From: Muricoccus nepalensis
GTDB taxonomy: Bacteria > Pseudomonadota > Alphaproteobacteria > Acetobacterales > Acetobacteraceae
Reading direction: 5' to 3'
Assembly: GCF_006438825.1 (NCBI RefSeq)
Contig: NZ_RCZP01000012.1
Span: forward strand, 62,001-126,000
Length of the DNA: 64,000 nt
A program made the translations under genes and the position numbers. Below the pieces are notes generated by a model that was not told the DNA's origin, ran no database searches, and saw only the letters and a program-made list of their open reading frames with translations. How positions within the stretch are numbered: the stretch's first letter is position 1; the number at the start of each line of letters is the position of its first letter. Below, piece by piece: positions 17,199-25,303 of the stretch.

Positions 17199-17632
17199 AC
17201 CGTCGTCTCCAACGCCTGGAGGAAGCGGGAGCGGTTGTCGGCGCTGAAGCTGGAGTGGCGTGTCTGGCCGTTCGTCACCTCCCGCATGTGGCGGGAGATC
17301 TCGCGCCCGGCGAGGGCCTGGCCGATGTTGGTGGTGTCCCAGACCTTGCCGCTCGGCGAGACCGCGTGGCCCCCGGCCGCGAGGCAGCGGGAGGCGAGCG
17401 GGATGTCGGCGGTGACGCAGATGTCGCCAGGGCGGATCGAATCCGCGATCCAGTCGTCCGCCACGTCCGGGCCGTCCGCCACGATGACGCGCCGCACCCA
17501 GTCCGGCAGCCGCACCCCGCGCGAGCCGTTGGCGACGACCGTGACGGGCAGGCCGTGCCGCTCGGCGACACGGAAGGCCTCGTCGCGCACCGGGCAGGCG
17601 TCCCCGTCGACGTAGAGGTGCGGCGCGCTCAG
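17135..17632 (-). CDS. DUF188 (YaiI/YqxD) family protein, probable CTG start
   Basis: About 165 residues. LYVDGDACPVRDEAFRVAERHGLPVTVVAN, IVADGPDVADDWIADSIRPGDICVTADIPLA and a GKVWDTTNIGQALA segment match the YaiI/YqxD family, a PIN-like fold of unknown function. No ATG, GTG or TTG lies near the expected N-terminus. The likely start is CTG at 17632, which overlaps the hyuB stop (CTGA), giving MSAPHLYVDGDACP. The extended Pro/Ala C-terminal tail lies within the region shared with the FUSC gene. Confidence 0.8.
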   Translation of the reverse strand: MSAPHLYVDGDACPVRDEAFRVAERHGLPVTVVANGSRGVRLPDWVRRVIVADGPDVADDWIADSIRPGDICVTADIPLASRCLAAGGHAVSPSGKVWDTTNIGQALAGREISRHMREVTNGQTRHSSFSADNRSRFLQALETTVQRAMRGPAPPPPAMPDFFSD

Positions 17633-19269
17633 AGGAGGCCGTCCGCGACGTCGCGCGCGGCCAGCGCCGGGTCGCGCCGCGCGGGGTCGCCCATGCCGCC
17701 GCCGCCCGGCAGCAGCAGGCGCAGGCGCTTGCCCCTGGGGATGACCTGGTAGCCCTTGGTGCGCAGCGGCGTGCCGTCGGTCAGCCCGACCCAGCCGGGG
17801 GCGCCGTCGCCCCCGCCGTCCCGCCCGCGGGGGGCGTTGGCCACGCGGTCGAAGATGGCGTTGACGGCGAACTCGGCGTCGTCCCGCGCGCCGATCTCCA
17901 TGACCTGCCCGAGGCCGCCCCGCGTGCGGCCCGGCCCGCCGGAGCCCGCGCGGAGCTCCTTCTTCCAGAACACCACGGGGGCCACGTTCTCGGTCGCCTC
18001 CACCGGCATGGTCCGCACGCCCGAGGGGAAGGCGGTGCCGTCCAGCCCGTCCTGCCCGGGCCGCGCGCCGGTGCCGCCGGAGTTGAAGGTGATGACCTCG
18101 AAGTCCGGCAGCTCGGCCTCGGCACCGCTCACCTGGCCGCCGCCGCGCAGCGGCGGGTTCCAGAGGCAGGAGGAACCCTCCGCCACCACGCGGTCCGGCA
18201 CCGCCTGGTGCAGGCAGCCCATCATCAGGTCCGGCAGGAGCTGGCCGACGACGTGGCGCACGCTGACGGGGAAAGGCCGCGGGGCGTTGAGGATGCAGCC
18301 CTCGGGGATCGTCATCCGGAAGGGCAGCAGGGAGGCCCAGTTGTTCGGCACCTCCGGCGCGACGACGCACTTGATCCCGAAGCAGGCGTAGGCGCGGCAA
18401 TAGGCAGCAGGCACGTTGATGCCGCGGCCCGAGAGGCCGGTAGTGCCGGCGTAGTCCACCGCGATATGGTCCTCGGCGATGGTCATGCGGGCGCGGAGCG
18501 TGACGAGGGCCTCGTAGCCGTCGGAGCGGATCTCGGAAGCGAACTCCCCGCGCGGCAGCCTGGCGATCTCGGCCAGCGTCGCGCGGGAGGAGGCCTCGAA
18601 GATCGACTCCGCGAGCTCGTCGATCGCCTCCATCCCGTACTCGTCCATCATCTCCACGAGGCGGCGCGCGCCGGCGTCGTTGCAGGCGCAAAGGGAGTAG
18701 ACGTCGCCCTCCAGCTCCGCCGGCGTGCGGGTGCCGGCGCGGAGGATGTCGAAGAATGTCTCGTTCGCGCGCCCCTGGTCGAAGCACTTCACGATGGGGA
18801 TGTAGAGGCCCTCCTCGAAGACCGAGCGCCCCTCCGGCCCCATGCCGAGGCCGCCGACGTCGATGACGTGCGCGGTGTTGGCGAAGAGGGCCACGATGGC
18901 GCCGTTACGGAAGGCGGGCGTCACCACCGTCAGGTCGTGCAGGTGGCCGGTGCCGAGCCAGGGGTCGTTGGTGATGTAGTGGTCGCCCGGCCGCATCGTC
19001 TCCGCCGGAAACTTCGCGAGGAAGTGGCCGACGGATTCCATCATCGAGTTCACGTGCCCCGGCGTGCCCGTCACGGCCTGGGCGAGCATCCGGCCGCGAA
19101 GGTCGAACACGCCCGCCGAGAGATCCCCCGCCTCCCGCACCGTGGTGCTGAAGGCGGTCCGGATCATGATCTGCGCCTGCTCCTCCACCACGGCGATGAG
19201 GCGGTTCCACTGGATCTGGCGCTGGATGGCGGCTAGGGCAGCAGGCACTTGCGGCGGCTTAAATTCCAT
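17629..19269 (-). CDS. hyuB: Hydantoinase B/oxoprolinase family subunit
   Basis: 546 residues of the HyuB family: EEQAQIMIRTAFSTTVREAGDLSAGVFD near the N-terminus, PGDHYITNDPWLGTGHLHD, DYAGTTGLSGRGINVPAAYC, FNSGGTGARPGQDG and a glycine-rich end (LLPGGGGMGDP). With HyuA it forms an ATP-dependent enzyme that opens hydantoins, 5-oxoproline or related cyclic compounds. ATG 19269 has GGAAGGA upstream. hyuA normally abuts hyuB, but here a foreign-looking gene on the opposite strand sits between them. Confidence 0.93.
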   Translation of the reverse strand: MEFKPPQVPAALAAIQRQIQWNRLIAVVEEQAQIMIRTAFSTTVREAGDLSAGVFDLRGRMLAQAVTGTPGHVNSMMESVGHFLAKFPAETMRPGDHYITNDPWLGTGHLHDLTVVTPAFRNGAIVALFANTAHVIDVGGLGMGPEGRSVFEEGLYIPIVKCFDQGRANETFFDILRAGTRTPAELEGDVYSLCACNDAGARRLVEMMDEYGMEAIDELAESIFEASSRATLAEIARLPRGEFASEIRSDGYEALVTLRARMTIAEDHIAVDYAGTTGLSGRGINVPAAYCRAYACFGIKCVVAPEVPNNWASLLPFRMTIPEGCILNAPRPFPVSVRHVVGQLLPDLMMGCLHQAVPDRVVAEGSSCLWNPPLRGGGQVSGAEAELPDFEVITFNSGGTGARPGQDGLDGTAFPSGVRTMPVEATENVAPVVFWKKELRAGSGGPGRTRGGLGQVMEIGARDDAEFAVNAIFDRVANAPRGRDGGGDGAPGWVGLTDGTPLRTKGYQVIPRGKRLRLLLPGGGGMGDPARRDPALAARDVADGLL

Positions 19270-19308
19270 TATTAAATCCTTCCGGATTTCATTAAGAAAT
19301 GGCAGTAA

Positions 19309-19899
19309 ATGACAAAAGCTAAGTCTACTCCCCAAAAAGAATCGCCAAAATGGGACGAGCGATACTTAGAACTTGCTAAACTGGTCGGGAGTTGGTCGAA
19401 GGATCCTCGGGCCAAGGTCGGCGCCGCAATCGTAAATCCCAAGCGGGGCCGCTTAATATCCATTGGTTTCAACGGTTTCCCATCGAACGTTGAAGATAAT
19501 GCTCACCGTCTAGACGATCCTCACACAAAACTCACGATGACAATACATGCCGAACAAAACGCGCTGATTTTCGCAGGACAGCAAGCCCTCGAGTGCGATG
19601 CATACGTTGTTGGTAAGCCAGTTTGCAGTATGTGCGCCACCCTGCTAATTCAGGCGGGCATCAAACGGGTCGTAGCAGCAAAGCCAAGGCAAAATACGGG
19701 CTCCAAGTGGGATAAAATTGGCCTAGTCGCATTGGACATGCTCAAAGAAGCTGGAGTTGAATTCAAAGAATTAACAGATGCCGACCTTAGTCGTCTTGGT
19801 GTTACTGCCGATAAACCGCGTGAAGCACTCCCTCCGGCGGGAACAATCTTGACTGATGAGGAAGCATTGCAACCACACCTGTTTGATCCATTAAGCTGA
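19309..19899 (+). CDS. AT-rich cytidine/dCMP deaminase-like protein inserted in hyu operon
   Basis: 196 residues of the cytidine deaminase superfamily. The zinc and proton-shuttle motif is HAE in TIHAEQNALIF, and the second zinc motif is PVCSMCATLLIQAGI (CxxC). The N-terminal WDERYLELAKLVGSWSKDPRAKVGAAIV and GFNGFPSN resemble dCMP deaminases (CMP/dCMP deaminase zinc-binding domain). Base composition is strikingly different: roughly half A+T, against about 30% in neighbours. It lies on the plus strand, exactly between hyuB and hyuA, with 39 and 7 bases of spacing. This indicates recent transfer. A role in nucleotide metabolism or anti-phage nucleotide depletion is possible but unproven. Confidence 0.85.
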   Translation: MTKAKSTPQKESPKWDERYLELAKLVGSWSKDPRAKVGAAIVNPKRGRLISIGFNGFPSNVEDNAHRLDDPHTKLTMTIHAEQNALIFAGQQALECDAYVVGKPVCSMCATLLIQAGIKRVVAAKPRQNTGSKWDKIGLVALDMLKEAGVEFKELTDADLSRLGVTADKPREALPPAGTILTDEEALQPHLFDPLS

Positions 19900-19906
19900 A
19901 AACGGG

Positions 19907-22003
19907 TCATAAACGGCGGATGAGCTCCAGGTACCCCAGCCCATCCATCCGGCAGGTCCATCCCGGTCCCACCAGCGTGCTCGTCTCCGCCTCGGCCACG
20001 ATGCAGGGACCGGCGACCGCCGCGCCGGGCGCGAAGCCGTCGCGGTCGTAGACCGGCCAGTCCGAGACCTCGCCCCGCGCCGTGTCGCGCACCGCCTGGT
20101 GCCGGATCGGCGCGGGGGCGGGCGCCTCCGACACCTCGGCGACCGGGGGCGGCGCCTCCACCTCGGTCGCGACCGTCACCGCGAAGGAGAGGATCTCCAC
20201 GTCGCTGCCTGGCACCGGCCGGTCGTAGAAGCCGGCATAGGCGACGTCGTAGGCGGCGCGCACGGTCTCCACGTCCGCGGCCGCGAGGGTCTTCACCGGC
20301 AGGTCCACCGCGATCTCGTGGCCCTGCCCGACATAGCGCATGTAGGCGATGCGCCGCTCGACCAGCGGCGCCCCGAAGGCGCCGCGCGCGACGACCTCGC
20401 GCGCCTCGGCCGACATCTCCGCCAGCAGCGCGTTCACCGCCGCGGCGTCGAAGGAGCGGAAGCGCTGGTAGAGGCTGCGCACCACCTCGTAGCCGACCGG
20501 CGCCCGCAGGAAGCCGATCGCCGAGCCCACGCCGGCGCCGGAGGGCACCAGGAGGCAGTTCACGCCGATCTTCTCCGCCACGCGGTAGCCGTGCACCGGC
20601 CCACCGCCGCCGAAGGCGATGATGGCGCGCCCGTCATAGCCCTTGCCGCTCTCGATGGCATGGACGCGGGCGGCGTTCGCCATGTTCTCGTCCACCACCT
20701 CCACGACGCCGAGCGCCGCCATCTCGGGCGCGAGGCCGAGCGTGCCGAGGGCGGTGCCCATCGCGCGGCGGGAATCCTCCGGGTGCAGCGCCAGGCTGCC
20801 ACCGGCGAAGCTCGCGGGGTCGTAGCGGCCGAGCAGCAGGTTCGCGTCGGTCACCGCGGGCTTCGCGCCGCCGCGCCCGTAGCAGGCCGGGCCGGGATCG
20901 GCGCCCGCGCTCTCCGGCCCCACCTGGATGCGGCCGAGCGCGTCCACCGAGGCGATGGAACCGCCGCCCGCGCCGATCTCCACCATCTCGATGACGGGGA
21001 TGCGCAGCGGCAGGCCGGAGCCCTTCTTGAAGCGGCCGATCCGCGCCACCTCGAAGCTGCGCGCGGTCTGGGGCGCGAAGTCGTCGATGAGGCAGACCTT
21101 GGCGGTGGTGCCGCCCATGTCGAAGGAGAGCACGCGGTCCCAGCCCTTCTGCCGCGCCACCTGGGCGGAGAAGATGGCGCCCCCCGCGGGCCCGCTCTCG
21201 ACGAGGCGGATTGGGAAGCGCGCGGCGGTCTCGAGCGTCGTCAGCCCGCCGCCGGACAGCATCAGGAACAGCGGGCAGGCGAAGCCGGCCTCCCCCAGCC
21301 CGTCCCGCAGCCGGCCGAGATAGGTCGCCATCAGCGGCTGGACGTAGGCGTTGGCGGCGGTGGTCGAGAAGCGCTCCCACTCCCGCATCTCCGGCGACAC
21401 CTCGGAGGAGAGCGAGACGGGCAGCCCCGGCCATTCCTCCCGCACGATCTCGGCCGCGCGCCGCTCGTGCGCGGGGTTCACGAAGGCGTGGAGGAAGCCG
21501 ATCGCGAGGCTCTCGATCCCCTCCGCGCGCAGGCGGCGGACGGCCTCGCGCACTGCGTCCTCGTCCAGCGGCAGCAGCACGCGGCCGGTGTTGTCCAGCC
21601 GCTCGGGCACCGTCAGCCGCCAGCGGCGGGGCACCAGGGGCTCGGGCAGGGTGATGTTGAGGTCGTACTGGTCGTAGCGGCTCTCGTTGCCGAGCGCGAG
21701 GACGTCGCGGAAGCCCTCCGTCGTCAGCAGGGCCGTGCGCGCGCCCTTGCGCTCGATCACGGCATTGGTCGCGAGCGTCGTACCGTGGATGAAGAGCGCG
21801 ACGTCGGCCGGCCCCATCCCCGCCTTGGCGAGCACCGCGCGGACGCCCTCCAGCACGCCGCGCTCGGGCGCCGCGGGGGTGGTGAGGACCTTGGCGGTCC
21901 AGCGCGCCAGGCCCCCCTCCCCGTCCGGCCGCTCGAGCGCGAGGTCGGTGAAGGTGCCGCCGATGTCGGCGGCGAGCCGCGCGCCGCCCAGGTCCCCCGC
22001 CAC
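19907..22003 (-). CDS. hyuA: Hydantoinase A/oxoprolinase family subunit
   Basis: 698 residues of the HyuA family with an actin-like ATPase fold. RLAADIGGTFTDLAL is the phosphate-binding loop; FIHGTTLATNAVIERKG, LSGGGLTTLETAARFPIRLVESGPAGG, SFDMGGTTAKVCLIDD and IAFGGGGPVHGYRVAEKIG follow in family order. It couples ATP hydrolysis to opening of a cyclic amide such as hydantoin or 5-oxoproline, together with HyuB. GTG 22003 is 3 bases after the upstream SDR stop, so the SDR and hyuA are cotranscribed. Confidence 0.93.
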   Translation of the reverse strand: MAGDLGGARLAADIGGTFTDLALERPDGEGGLARWTAKVLTTPAAPERGVLEGVRAVLAKAGMGPADVALFIHGTTLATNAVIERKGARTALLTTEGFRDVLALGNESRYDQYDLNITLPEPLVPRRWRLTVPERLDNTGRVLLPLDEDAVREAVRRLRAEGIESLAIGFLHAFVNPAHERRAAEIVREEWPGLPVSLSSEVSPEMREWERFSTTAANAYVQPLMATYLGRLRDGLGEAGFACPLFLMLSGGGLTTLETAARFPIRLVESGPAGGAIFSAQVARQKGWDRVLSFDMGGTTAKVCLIDDFAPQTARSFEVARIGRFKKGSGLPLRIPVIEMVEIGAGGGSIASVDALGRIQVGPESAGADPGPACYGRGGAKPAVTDANLLLGRYDPASFAGGSLALHPEDSRRAMGTALGTLGLAPEMAALGVVEVVDENMANAARVHAIESGKGYDGRAIIAFGGGGPVHGYRVAEKIGVNCLLVPSGAGVGSAIGFLRAPVGYEVVRSLYQRFRSFDAAAVNALLAEMSAEAREVVARGAFGAPLVERRIAYMRYVGQGHEIAVDLPVKTLAAADVETVRAAYDVAYAGFYDRPVPGSDVEILSFAVTVATEVEAPPPVAEVSEAPAPAPIRHQAVRDTARGEVSDWPVYDRDGFAPGAAVAGPCIVAEAETSTLVGPGWTCRMDGLGYLELIRRL

Positions 22004-24536: not shown

Positions 24537-24602
24537 GCCTCCCGCGGCCGGAAACCACCCCTGGTTGGTGGCAGGCGGCCGGGCACCTGCTATTTGTCCC
24601 GC

Positions 24603-25166
24603 ATGCTCATCTATCTCGCCGGTCCCGAGGTCTTCCTGCCGGACGCCGACGCCCTCGCCCAGGCCAAGCGCGCCGTCTGCGCGCGTCACGGCGCCACCGG
24701 GATCTTCCCGACCGATCCCGTCGACTGCCCCGAGGCAGACCACGCGGAGGAGGCTTGGCTCGCCATCTACCTCCGCAACGAGGCGCATATCCGGCGGGCC
24801 GACGCGCTGATCGCCAACCTCACCCCCTTCCGCGGACCCTCCGCCGACCCGGGCACGGTGTACGAGCTCGGCTTCATGCGCGCCCTCGGCCGGCCGGTCG
24901 CCGGCTACTCCAACACCGACACCCCCTTCACCGAGCGCACCCGCGCCTTCCTCGGTCCGGCGGCCCGTCCGCGGCCGGACGGCGAGTGGGAGGACGCCGA
25001 GGGGCTGCACCTCGAAGCCTTCGGCCTGCACGACAACCTCATGATCGACGGCGGCCTCCGAGCCGCTGGCGGCCCCCTTGTCACGCGGCCGGTGGCGGCG
25101 GCGTCCCGCTGGCACGACCTCTCGGCCTTCGAGGCCGCGCTGGCCGCCTTGGTGAAATCGGCCTGA
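24603..25166 (+). CDS. Nucleoside 2-deoxyribosyltransferase
   Basis: 187 residues. MLIYLAGPEVFLPDA and FPTDP start the fold, and the nucleophile glutamate is in NLTPFRGPSADPGTVYELGFM, a good match for the family (PF05014). It transfers deoxyribose between bases or hydrolyses deoxynucleosides in nucleotide salvage. ATG 24603 is preferred over an in-frame TTG nine bases upstream. It stands alone before tRNA-Ser. Confidence 0.9.
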   Translation: MLIYLAGPEVFLPDADALAQAKRAVCARHGATGIFPTDPVDCPEADHAEEAWLAIYLRNEAHIRRADALIANLTPFRGPSADPGTVYELGFMRALGRPVAGYSNTDTPFTERTRAFLGPAARPRPDGEWEDAEGLHLEAFGLHDNLMIDGGLRAAGGPLVTRPVAAASRWHDLSAFEAALAALVKSA

Positions 25167-25212
25167 CCCCGCTTGCCCCCGGGGCCGAGGCCCCGTATAC
25201 CCCGCCGCCGCG

Positions 25213-25303
25213 GGACAGGTGGCCGAGCGGTCGAAGGCGCGCGCCTGGAAAGTGCGTATAGGTCAAAAGCCTATCGTGGGTTCGAATCCCACCCTGTCCG
25301 CCA
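25213..25303 (+). tRNA. tRNA-Ser (GGA)
   Basis: 91 bases with the long variable arm typical of serine tRNAs. The acceptor GGACAGG pairs with CCTGTCC, the anticodon loop CTGGAAA gives anticodon GGA, the T-arm is GGGTTCGAATCCC, and a CCA end is encoded at 25301-25303. Confidence 0.97.

Follow-up and report, generated by a model that had tools for sequence, protein, structure and literature searches.

An AT-rich gene separates the hydantoinase genes hyuB and hyuA on the opposite strand of a 64-kb bacterial genomic stretch (hereafter the window, meaning the whole stretch of DNA analyzed), raising the questions of what this gene encodes, how it came to lie there and whether the junction that it occupies also receives other genes. 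We assigned the following features to the locus in window coordinates:

17629..19269, minus strand: hyuB (hydantoinase B/oxoprolinase) with new N-terminal residues MEFKPPQVPA, from Pfam and comparison with empty-site relatives
19270..19308, no strand: divergent spacer of 39 bp with a ribosome-site-like stretch for hyuB
19309..19899, plus strand: dCMP deaminase-type gene, 196 aa, AT-rich, with a zinc site
19870..19884, plus strand: codons of the QPHLF peptide (residues 188–192), which resembles a sliding-clamp-binding peptide, a putative function
19900..19906, no strand: convergent spacer of 7 bp from the deaminase stop to the hyuA stop
19907..22003, minus strand: hyuA (hydantoinase A/oxoprolinase) with a new C-terminal end LIRRL, from Pfam and comparison with empty-site relatives

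Probable acquisition of the deaminase gene

The hyuB start (19269, minus strand) and hyuA stop (19907, minus strand) are separated by 637 bp in which the deaminase is the sole recognized gene, and Pfam assigns the flanking genes to PF02538 (Hydantoinase_B, E 8.9e-138) and PF01968/PF05378 (Hydantoinase_A). An earlier note on this DNA had described an AT-rich deaminase gene placed between hyuB and hyuA on the opposite strand, and our analysis confirms this arrangement. The gene has a GC content of 0.496, with values of 0.60, 0.43 and 0.46 at the three codon positions; third-position GC is 0.96 in hyuB, 0.97 in hyuA and 0.95 in the host's own deaminase paralogue. The 591-bp stretch with the lowest GC in the window begins at 19259 and overlaps the deaminase gene. 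Elsewhere in the window, a nucleoside 2-deoxyribosyltransferase gene (PF05014) at 24594–25303 is followed by a tRNA-Ser, and GC is lower (0.64–0.68) over the 7 kb beyond that tRNA.

We compared the hyu locus with that of close relatives, a check that the earlier note had proposed while conceding that presence of the gene at this site throughout the genus would undo its reading. Instead, none of the 14 other genomes in the genus has the deaminase at this site: 13 have an empty junction, with the two hyu genes overlapping or almost abutting (projected gaps −31 to +2 bp), and the remaining genome, G004, carries a 921-bp AT-rich insert with a different gene, a PDC-S14 family member. Foreign composition and an empty site in relatives point to horizontal acquisition of the insert, in keeping with the earlier proposal of a foreign single-gene insert lacking mobile genes. 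In L044 and L045, the nearest relatives with an empty site, the hyuA stop and the hyuB start overlap as ATGA, and the hyuA product finishes in ..LELTR*. The window's hyuA instead runs to ..LELIRRL*, and its hyuB opens with a new ATG and new first residues, preceded by a ribosome-site-like stretch that is likewise new. Both reading frames survive with altered ends because the inserted DNA supplies a stop codon for hyuA together with a ribosome-site-like stretch and start codon for hyuB, so the claim that neither hyu gene was damaged holds for the frames but not for the hyuA end and the hyuB start, both of which changed. The further suggestion that hyuB needs its own promoter found no support: a scan for sigma-70-type promoters, which is blind to other promoter types, found none at 19100–20100, and hyuB transcription by read-through from hyuA is possible.

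End repeats, inverted repeats and target duplication at the insert did not exceed chance when compared with shuffles, and no recombinase was found within the 637 bp; judged by terminal repeats, target duplication or a recombinase, the insert has no mark of a transposon or an integron cassette. A recombination tract was considered and rejected, since no donor-like block was present and identity to the second genus described below was lower throughout (0.64–0.88) than to L044. Identity between the window and L044 is 0.77 over the first 100 bp of hyuB and 0.87–0.95 beyond, and 0.83–0.88 over the last 400 bp of hyuA and 0.90–0.93 beyond.

The hyuA/hyuB junction is occupied by a deaminase in a second genus as well. 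A Rubritepida sp. metagenome-assembled genome (L021; NCBI family Roseomonadaceae) carries an AT-rich homologue with 58% identity at the same junction and in the same orientation, with 42% GC (L021/L025). The same deaminase occurs in G414, a member of the host's family that is probably the same genome as L021. Within the genus of G414 (g68), the deaminase is at the junction in one of 13 genomes and absent there from all 12 others with a listed hyuB: in nine of these the hyu genes overlap, in two they lie 31–34 bp apart, and in L123 a VapB/PIN insert separates them. These two deaminases are the only ones known at a hyuA/hyuB junction.

Varied cargo at the hyuA/hyuB junction

We searched 397 genomes of the family, found a hyuB match in 226 and measured the 130 best-ranked loci, with close relatives counted apart and with one less certain orthologue (L163, hyuA 61% identical) still included. 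The gap between hyuB and hyuA was at most 20 bp in 104 loci, 21–100 bp in four and more than 100 bp in 21, and one locus had no hyuA within about 2.6 kb. By the script's count, which places L142 at the limit, seven of the 21 inserts have a GC content at least 10 points below the hyuA flank.

The junction holds varied cargo, including toxin–antitoxin and defense-candidate genes. Matches to toxin–antitoxin families (VapB/PIN and others), PDC-S14 or both occur in seven of 22 interrupted junctions, a total that counts the locus lacking hyuA. The deaminase is the cargo of L043 and of the window. L063 and L092 encode nearly full-length PADLOC PDC-S14 proteins (E 1.6e-57 and 5.2e-58) that match DUF4357 in Pfam, and PDC-S14 also occurs in L099 and in L137, where the copy covers 181 of 320 positions. 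By eye we also labeled these inserted PDC-S14 proteins as GIY-YIG, a domain that Pfam did not return. Passages in the literature term PDC genes phage defense candidates (PMC11514479) and report DUF4357 alongside GIY-YIG domains and within homologues of GmrSD (PMC4619093). PIN matches are present in L099, L123, L137 and L163, VapB in L123 and L142, and Phd/YefM in L163; by eye only, we also noted a PIN-like stretch in L159 and VapB- or PIN-like partners in L099, L137 and L142. Other inserts encode a glycosyltransferase (L090, with L060 similar by eye), a DUF3574 protein (L096, which L112 and L114 resemble by eye), small, mutually related proteins of unknown kind (L058, L071 and L073, one of which was scanned and gave no match) and unknown proteins in L093, in L095 and, beside its toxin–antitoxin genes, in L142. 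The insert of L094 is one gene that lay outside the family scans, and two further inserts are short (115 and 206 bp). The earlier note had held that such inserts typically carry defense or toxin genes, which is true of some relatives' junctions, while most inserts are not recognizably defensive.

The AT-rich inserted genes of L142, L093 and L095 encode 241, 310 and 172 residues without a Pfam or PADLOC match and are candidates for new cargo functions. PDC-S14 also lies elsewhere: a total of 35 matches came from 33 genomes out of 299, and three of these sit at hyuA/hyuB (G004, G072 and G177). Two of the three were seen in the set of 30 loci examined and the third was placed by its coordinates; for the other four, contig numbers were the sole basis.

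As a control pair in the same family we used glcD/glcE, in a set of 110 loci (30 plus 80 chosen stretches), three of which had no glcE in reach and fall outside the 107 scored. The 80 stretches do not follow the ranked list without breaks, as G387 (a short contig end) and three kinds of short or lower-ranked rows were passed over. The glcD/glcE gap exceeded 100 bp in 7/107 loci, including two of 111–112 bp in the host's genus, and exceeded 200 bp in 5/107, all in genus g119 with host-like GC (0.72–0.77). These g119 inserts measure 656–1709 bp (L249, L273, L282, L289 and L290). With relatedness uncorrected, Fisher tests gave p = 0.026 for gaps above 100 bp (hyuA/hyuB 21/129, glcD/glcE 7/107), p = 0.0097 for gaps above 200 bp (20/129, 5/107) and p = 0.088 when missing partners were counted on both sides (22/130, 10/110), a suggestive excess of interrupted hyuA/hyuB junctions. 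The SDR/hyuA junction was dropped as a control, since among 100 loci SDR lay beside hyuA in 12, did not in 71 and could not be judged in 17. It is likely that interruptions are more frequent at hyuA/hyuB than at other gene pairs, a grade we keep at likely because relatedness is uncorrected and a single control pair cannot fix the base rate. Titles and abstract openings of literature on hydantoinase, hotspots and integration describe no hyuA/hyuB hotspot. Should it prove a true hotspot, the junction would offer a simple address for unrecognized defense and toxin–antitoxin genes across a whole bacterial family.

Enzyme identity and the C-terminal tail

The insert encodes a member of the dCMP deaminase family (PF00383, dCMP_cyt_deam_1, 64.1 bits against a cut-off of 25) that also matches phrog_174 "dCMP deaminase" in PHROGs (146.6 bits). 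Its only Pfam matches, PF00383 and PF14437, cover the same residues 14–132, and there is no second domain. The HAE and CxxC zinc motifs are intact, as the earlier note had read them, with H80–E82, C106 and C109 invariant in a 28-sequence alignment; as is usual in the family, H80, C106 and C109 would form the zinc site and E82 would be catalytic. The solved relatives nearest by sequence are dCMP deaminases (7fh4, 2w4l, 2hvv, 1vq2 and 4p9c), and an AlphaFold2 model (mean pLDDT 86.1) has a confident core and a loose tail from about residue 171 (pLDDT 52–56).

In a 68-row tree the two junction copies pair with weak support (92/42), their neighbors being genes from genus g16 and the resident copies in the host's genus. 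Next outward lie two plasmid copies and one from another family of the class, and six viral proteins fall outside; neither the tree nor the motif count includes the duplicates L021, L022 and L043. KP[VI]CxxC replaces PCxxC in the clade of the insert and is common to L177, L202 and L203. A blastn search of plasmid DNA gave no match to the deaminase gene, and protein relatives occur in 49 of 72,556 plasmid records, all below 60% identity. On a Vibrio campbellii conjugative plasmid (L203, 3785–6712), a deaminase with 47% identity adjoins DUF2726 and HEPN-domain genes.

The tail ends in QPHLF in the insert and in QTDLF in the other junction copy, and Q..[FL].[FL] stands near the end of all 17 g16 proteins with variable residues between, so that a clamp-type peptide is present in the flexible end of 19/19 tailed proteins. 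We presume that Q..LF and Q..L.L/F tail peptides are akin to bacterial sliding-clamp-binding peptides. Within the last 30 residues, the pattern is absent from 11 resident copies and 38 other relatives (0/49) and occurs in 3/80 viral relatives, always 17–21 residues inside the end and never terminally. The pattern was chosen after the tails were seen, and shuffled tails match it in 2–12% of cases; since the g16 proteins are close kin, it represents about three independent lineages. Titles and abstract openings, among the matches listed, on dCMP deaminase with clamp or clamp-binding motif contain no clamp-bound dCMP deaminase. A tail that binds the clamp would mean a nucleotide-supply enzyme tethered to the replication machine in bacteria. 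A fuller scenario, in which a clamp-riding dCMP deaminase would alter nucleotide supply at the fork, as a core gene in one genus and in AT-rich form as defense cargo spread through the hyuA/hyuB hotspot, strikes us as a long shot.

We consider it probable that the insert is a zinc-dependent dCMP deaminase gained by horizontal transfer, a one-gene cargo at the hyuA/hyuB junction, where insertion recurs in this bacterial family. From its intact motifs and homology, the enzyme is predicted to convert dCMP to dUMP alongside the dCTP deaminase and the second dCMP deaminase of the host, and such activity would shift the deoxynucleotide pool; more weakly, we infer that the C-terminal QPHLF peptide may dock on the DNA sliding clamp. 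Of more weight than the deaminase itself are the repeated use of this junction and the conservation of the tail.

Competing readings and known systems

Canonical dCTP deaminase (Dcd, TIGR02274) scores above cut-off in the host and 23/23 relatives (24/24 genomes), and the host carries, next to dapF, a GC-rich resident paralogue of the dCMP deaminase with 55% identity (L002 1423–1959, minus strand; G000:C1:80270–80725). A related GC-rich deaminase is found in 11/15 genomes of the host's genus, and g16 has the deaminase as a GC-rich chromosomal core gene in 17/17 genomes. With Dcd in every genome examined and a second dCMP deaminase in the host, dTTP supply is independent of the insert, and the plain dCMP deaminase needed for dTTP, which the earlier note had named as fatal to its reading, is not what we find. 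A spare enzyme of ordinary accessory metabolism, salvaging dCMP to dUMP and kept by drift or mild benefit with no role in defense or at the fork, would agree with the standard motifs and with a clade shared with these g16 and resident genes. Against it stand the Dcd and paralogue already in place, the AT-rich and sporadic nature of the junction copies, and a junction shared with toxin–antitoxin and defense-candidate genes, and we give this reading a real chance that falls slightly short of even.

An anti-phage role, in which an AvcD/DCD-like enzyme without the regulatory half would drain dCMP/dCTP or raise dUMP/dUTP during infection and so spoil phage DNA synthesis, appears rather unlikely. 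The insert is a sporadic, AT-rich single gene, redundant for dTTP supply, at a junction whose other occupants include the toxin–antitoxin and PADLOC defense-candidate matches described above, and a passage of PMC10511110 states that AvcD deaminates dCTP and dCMP after phage infection. Membership in this dCTP-depleting defense family, toward which the earlier note had pointed, is nonetheless not supported: the protein scores 39.6 bits against a cut-off of 400 for NF041025 (AvcD/DCD; best stretch 337–384 of 437) and 39.1 bits for PADLOC dCTPase, and falls outside both. AvcD/DCD proteins have an upstream regulatory (kinase-like) domain. The 196-aa insert has no such domain, and Rfam, which may or may not cover AvcI, the adjacent RNA antitoxin of AvcD, returned no match at 18900–20200 up to E 0.1. 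The nearest relatives also include the chromosomal core genes of g16, and among the 21 other interrupted junctions 14 lack a toxin–antitoxin or defense match (one, L159, is PIN-like by eye).

It is improbable that the insert is a leftover phage gene, a dCMP deaminase picked up from a phage that was infecting the cell or had been degraded. Relatives are encoded in 1,754 of 50,697 phage records, and the phrog_174 match and AT-rich composition would suit such an origin, but the best places of all 1,754 are below 60% identity (at most 45.9% among the 30 matches listed), the viral proteins fall outside the clade in the tree, the terminal peptide is found in 0/80 viral loci (the three internal matches being attributed to chance) and no phage gene was found beside the deaminase. 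One viral dCMP deaminase (L361, 2001 onward) has a long C-terminal run of "YSAATNTG"-like repeat units. An ancestral hyuA/hyuB gene lost almost everywhere is similarly improbable, for although the two genera share junction and orientation and their deaminases pair weakly in the tree, the junction lacks the deaminase in 14/14 other same-genus and 12/12 other second-genus genomes and the gene is AT-rich among GC-rich neighbors in both.

Acquired single-gene cargo at a recurrent site, the reading that we prefer, can be set beside three known systems. The insert shares HAE and CxxC motifs, core length and a confident single-domain model with dCMP deaminases, and differs from them in having KPVCxxC where most aligned relatives have PCxxC and a C-terminal tail of ~40 residues that ends in a Q..LF peptide. 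Likeness to AvcD/DCD is confined to the deaminase motif region, and the 196-aa protein contrasts with the 437-position NF041025 model. Insertion hotspots between conserved genes without mobile genes are a known kind, and the hyuA/hyuB junction resembles them in its conserved flanks, varied cargo and mostly empty sites. It differs from known hotspots in that the site is the stop/start overlap of two subunit genes, and in that codon overlaps, at one end or at both, fit the cargo of L063, L092 and L095 into the operon.
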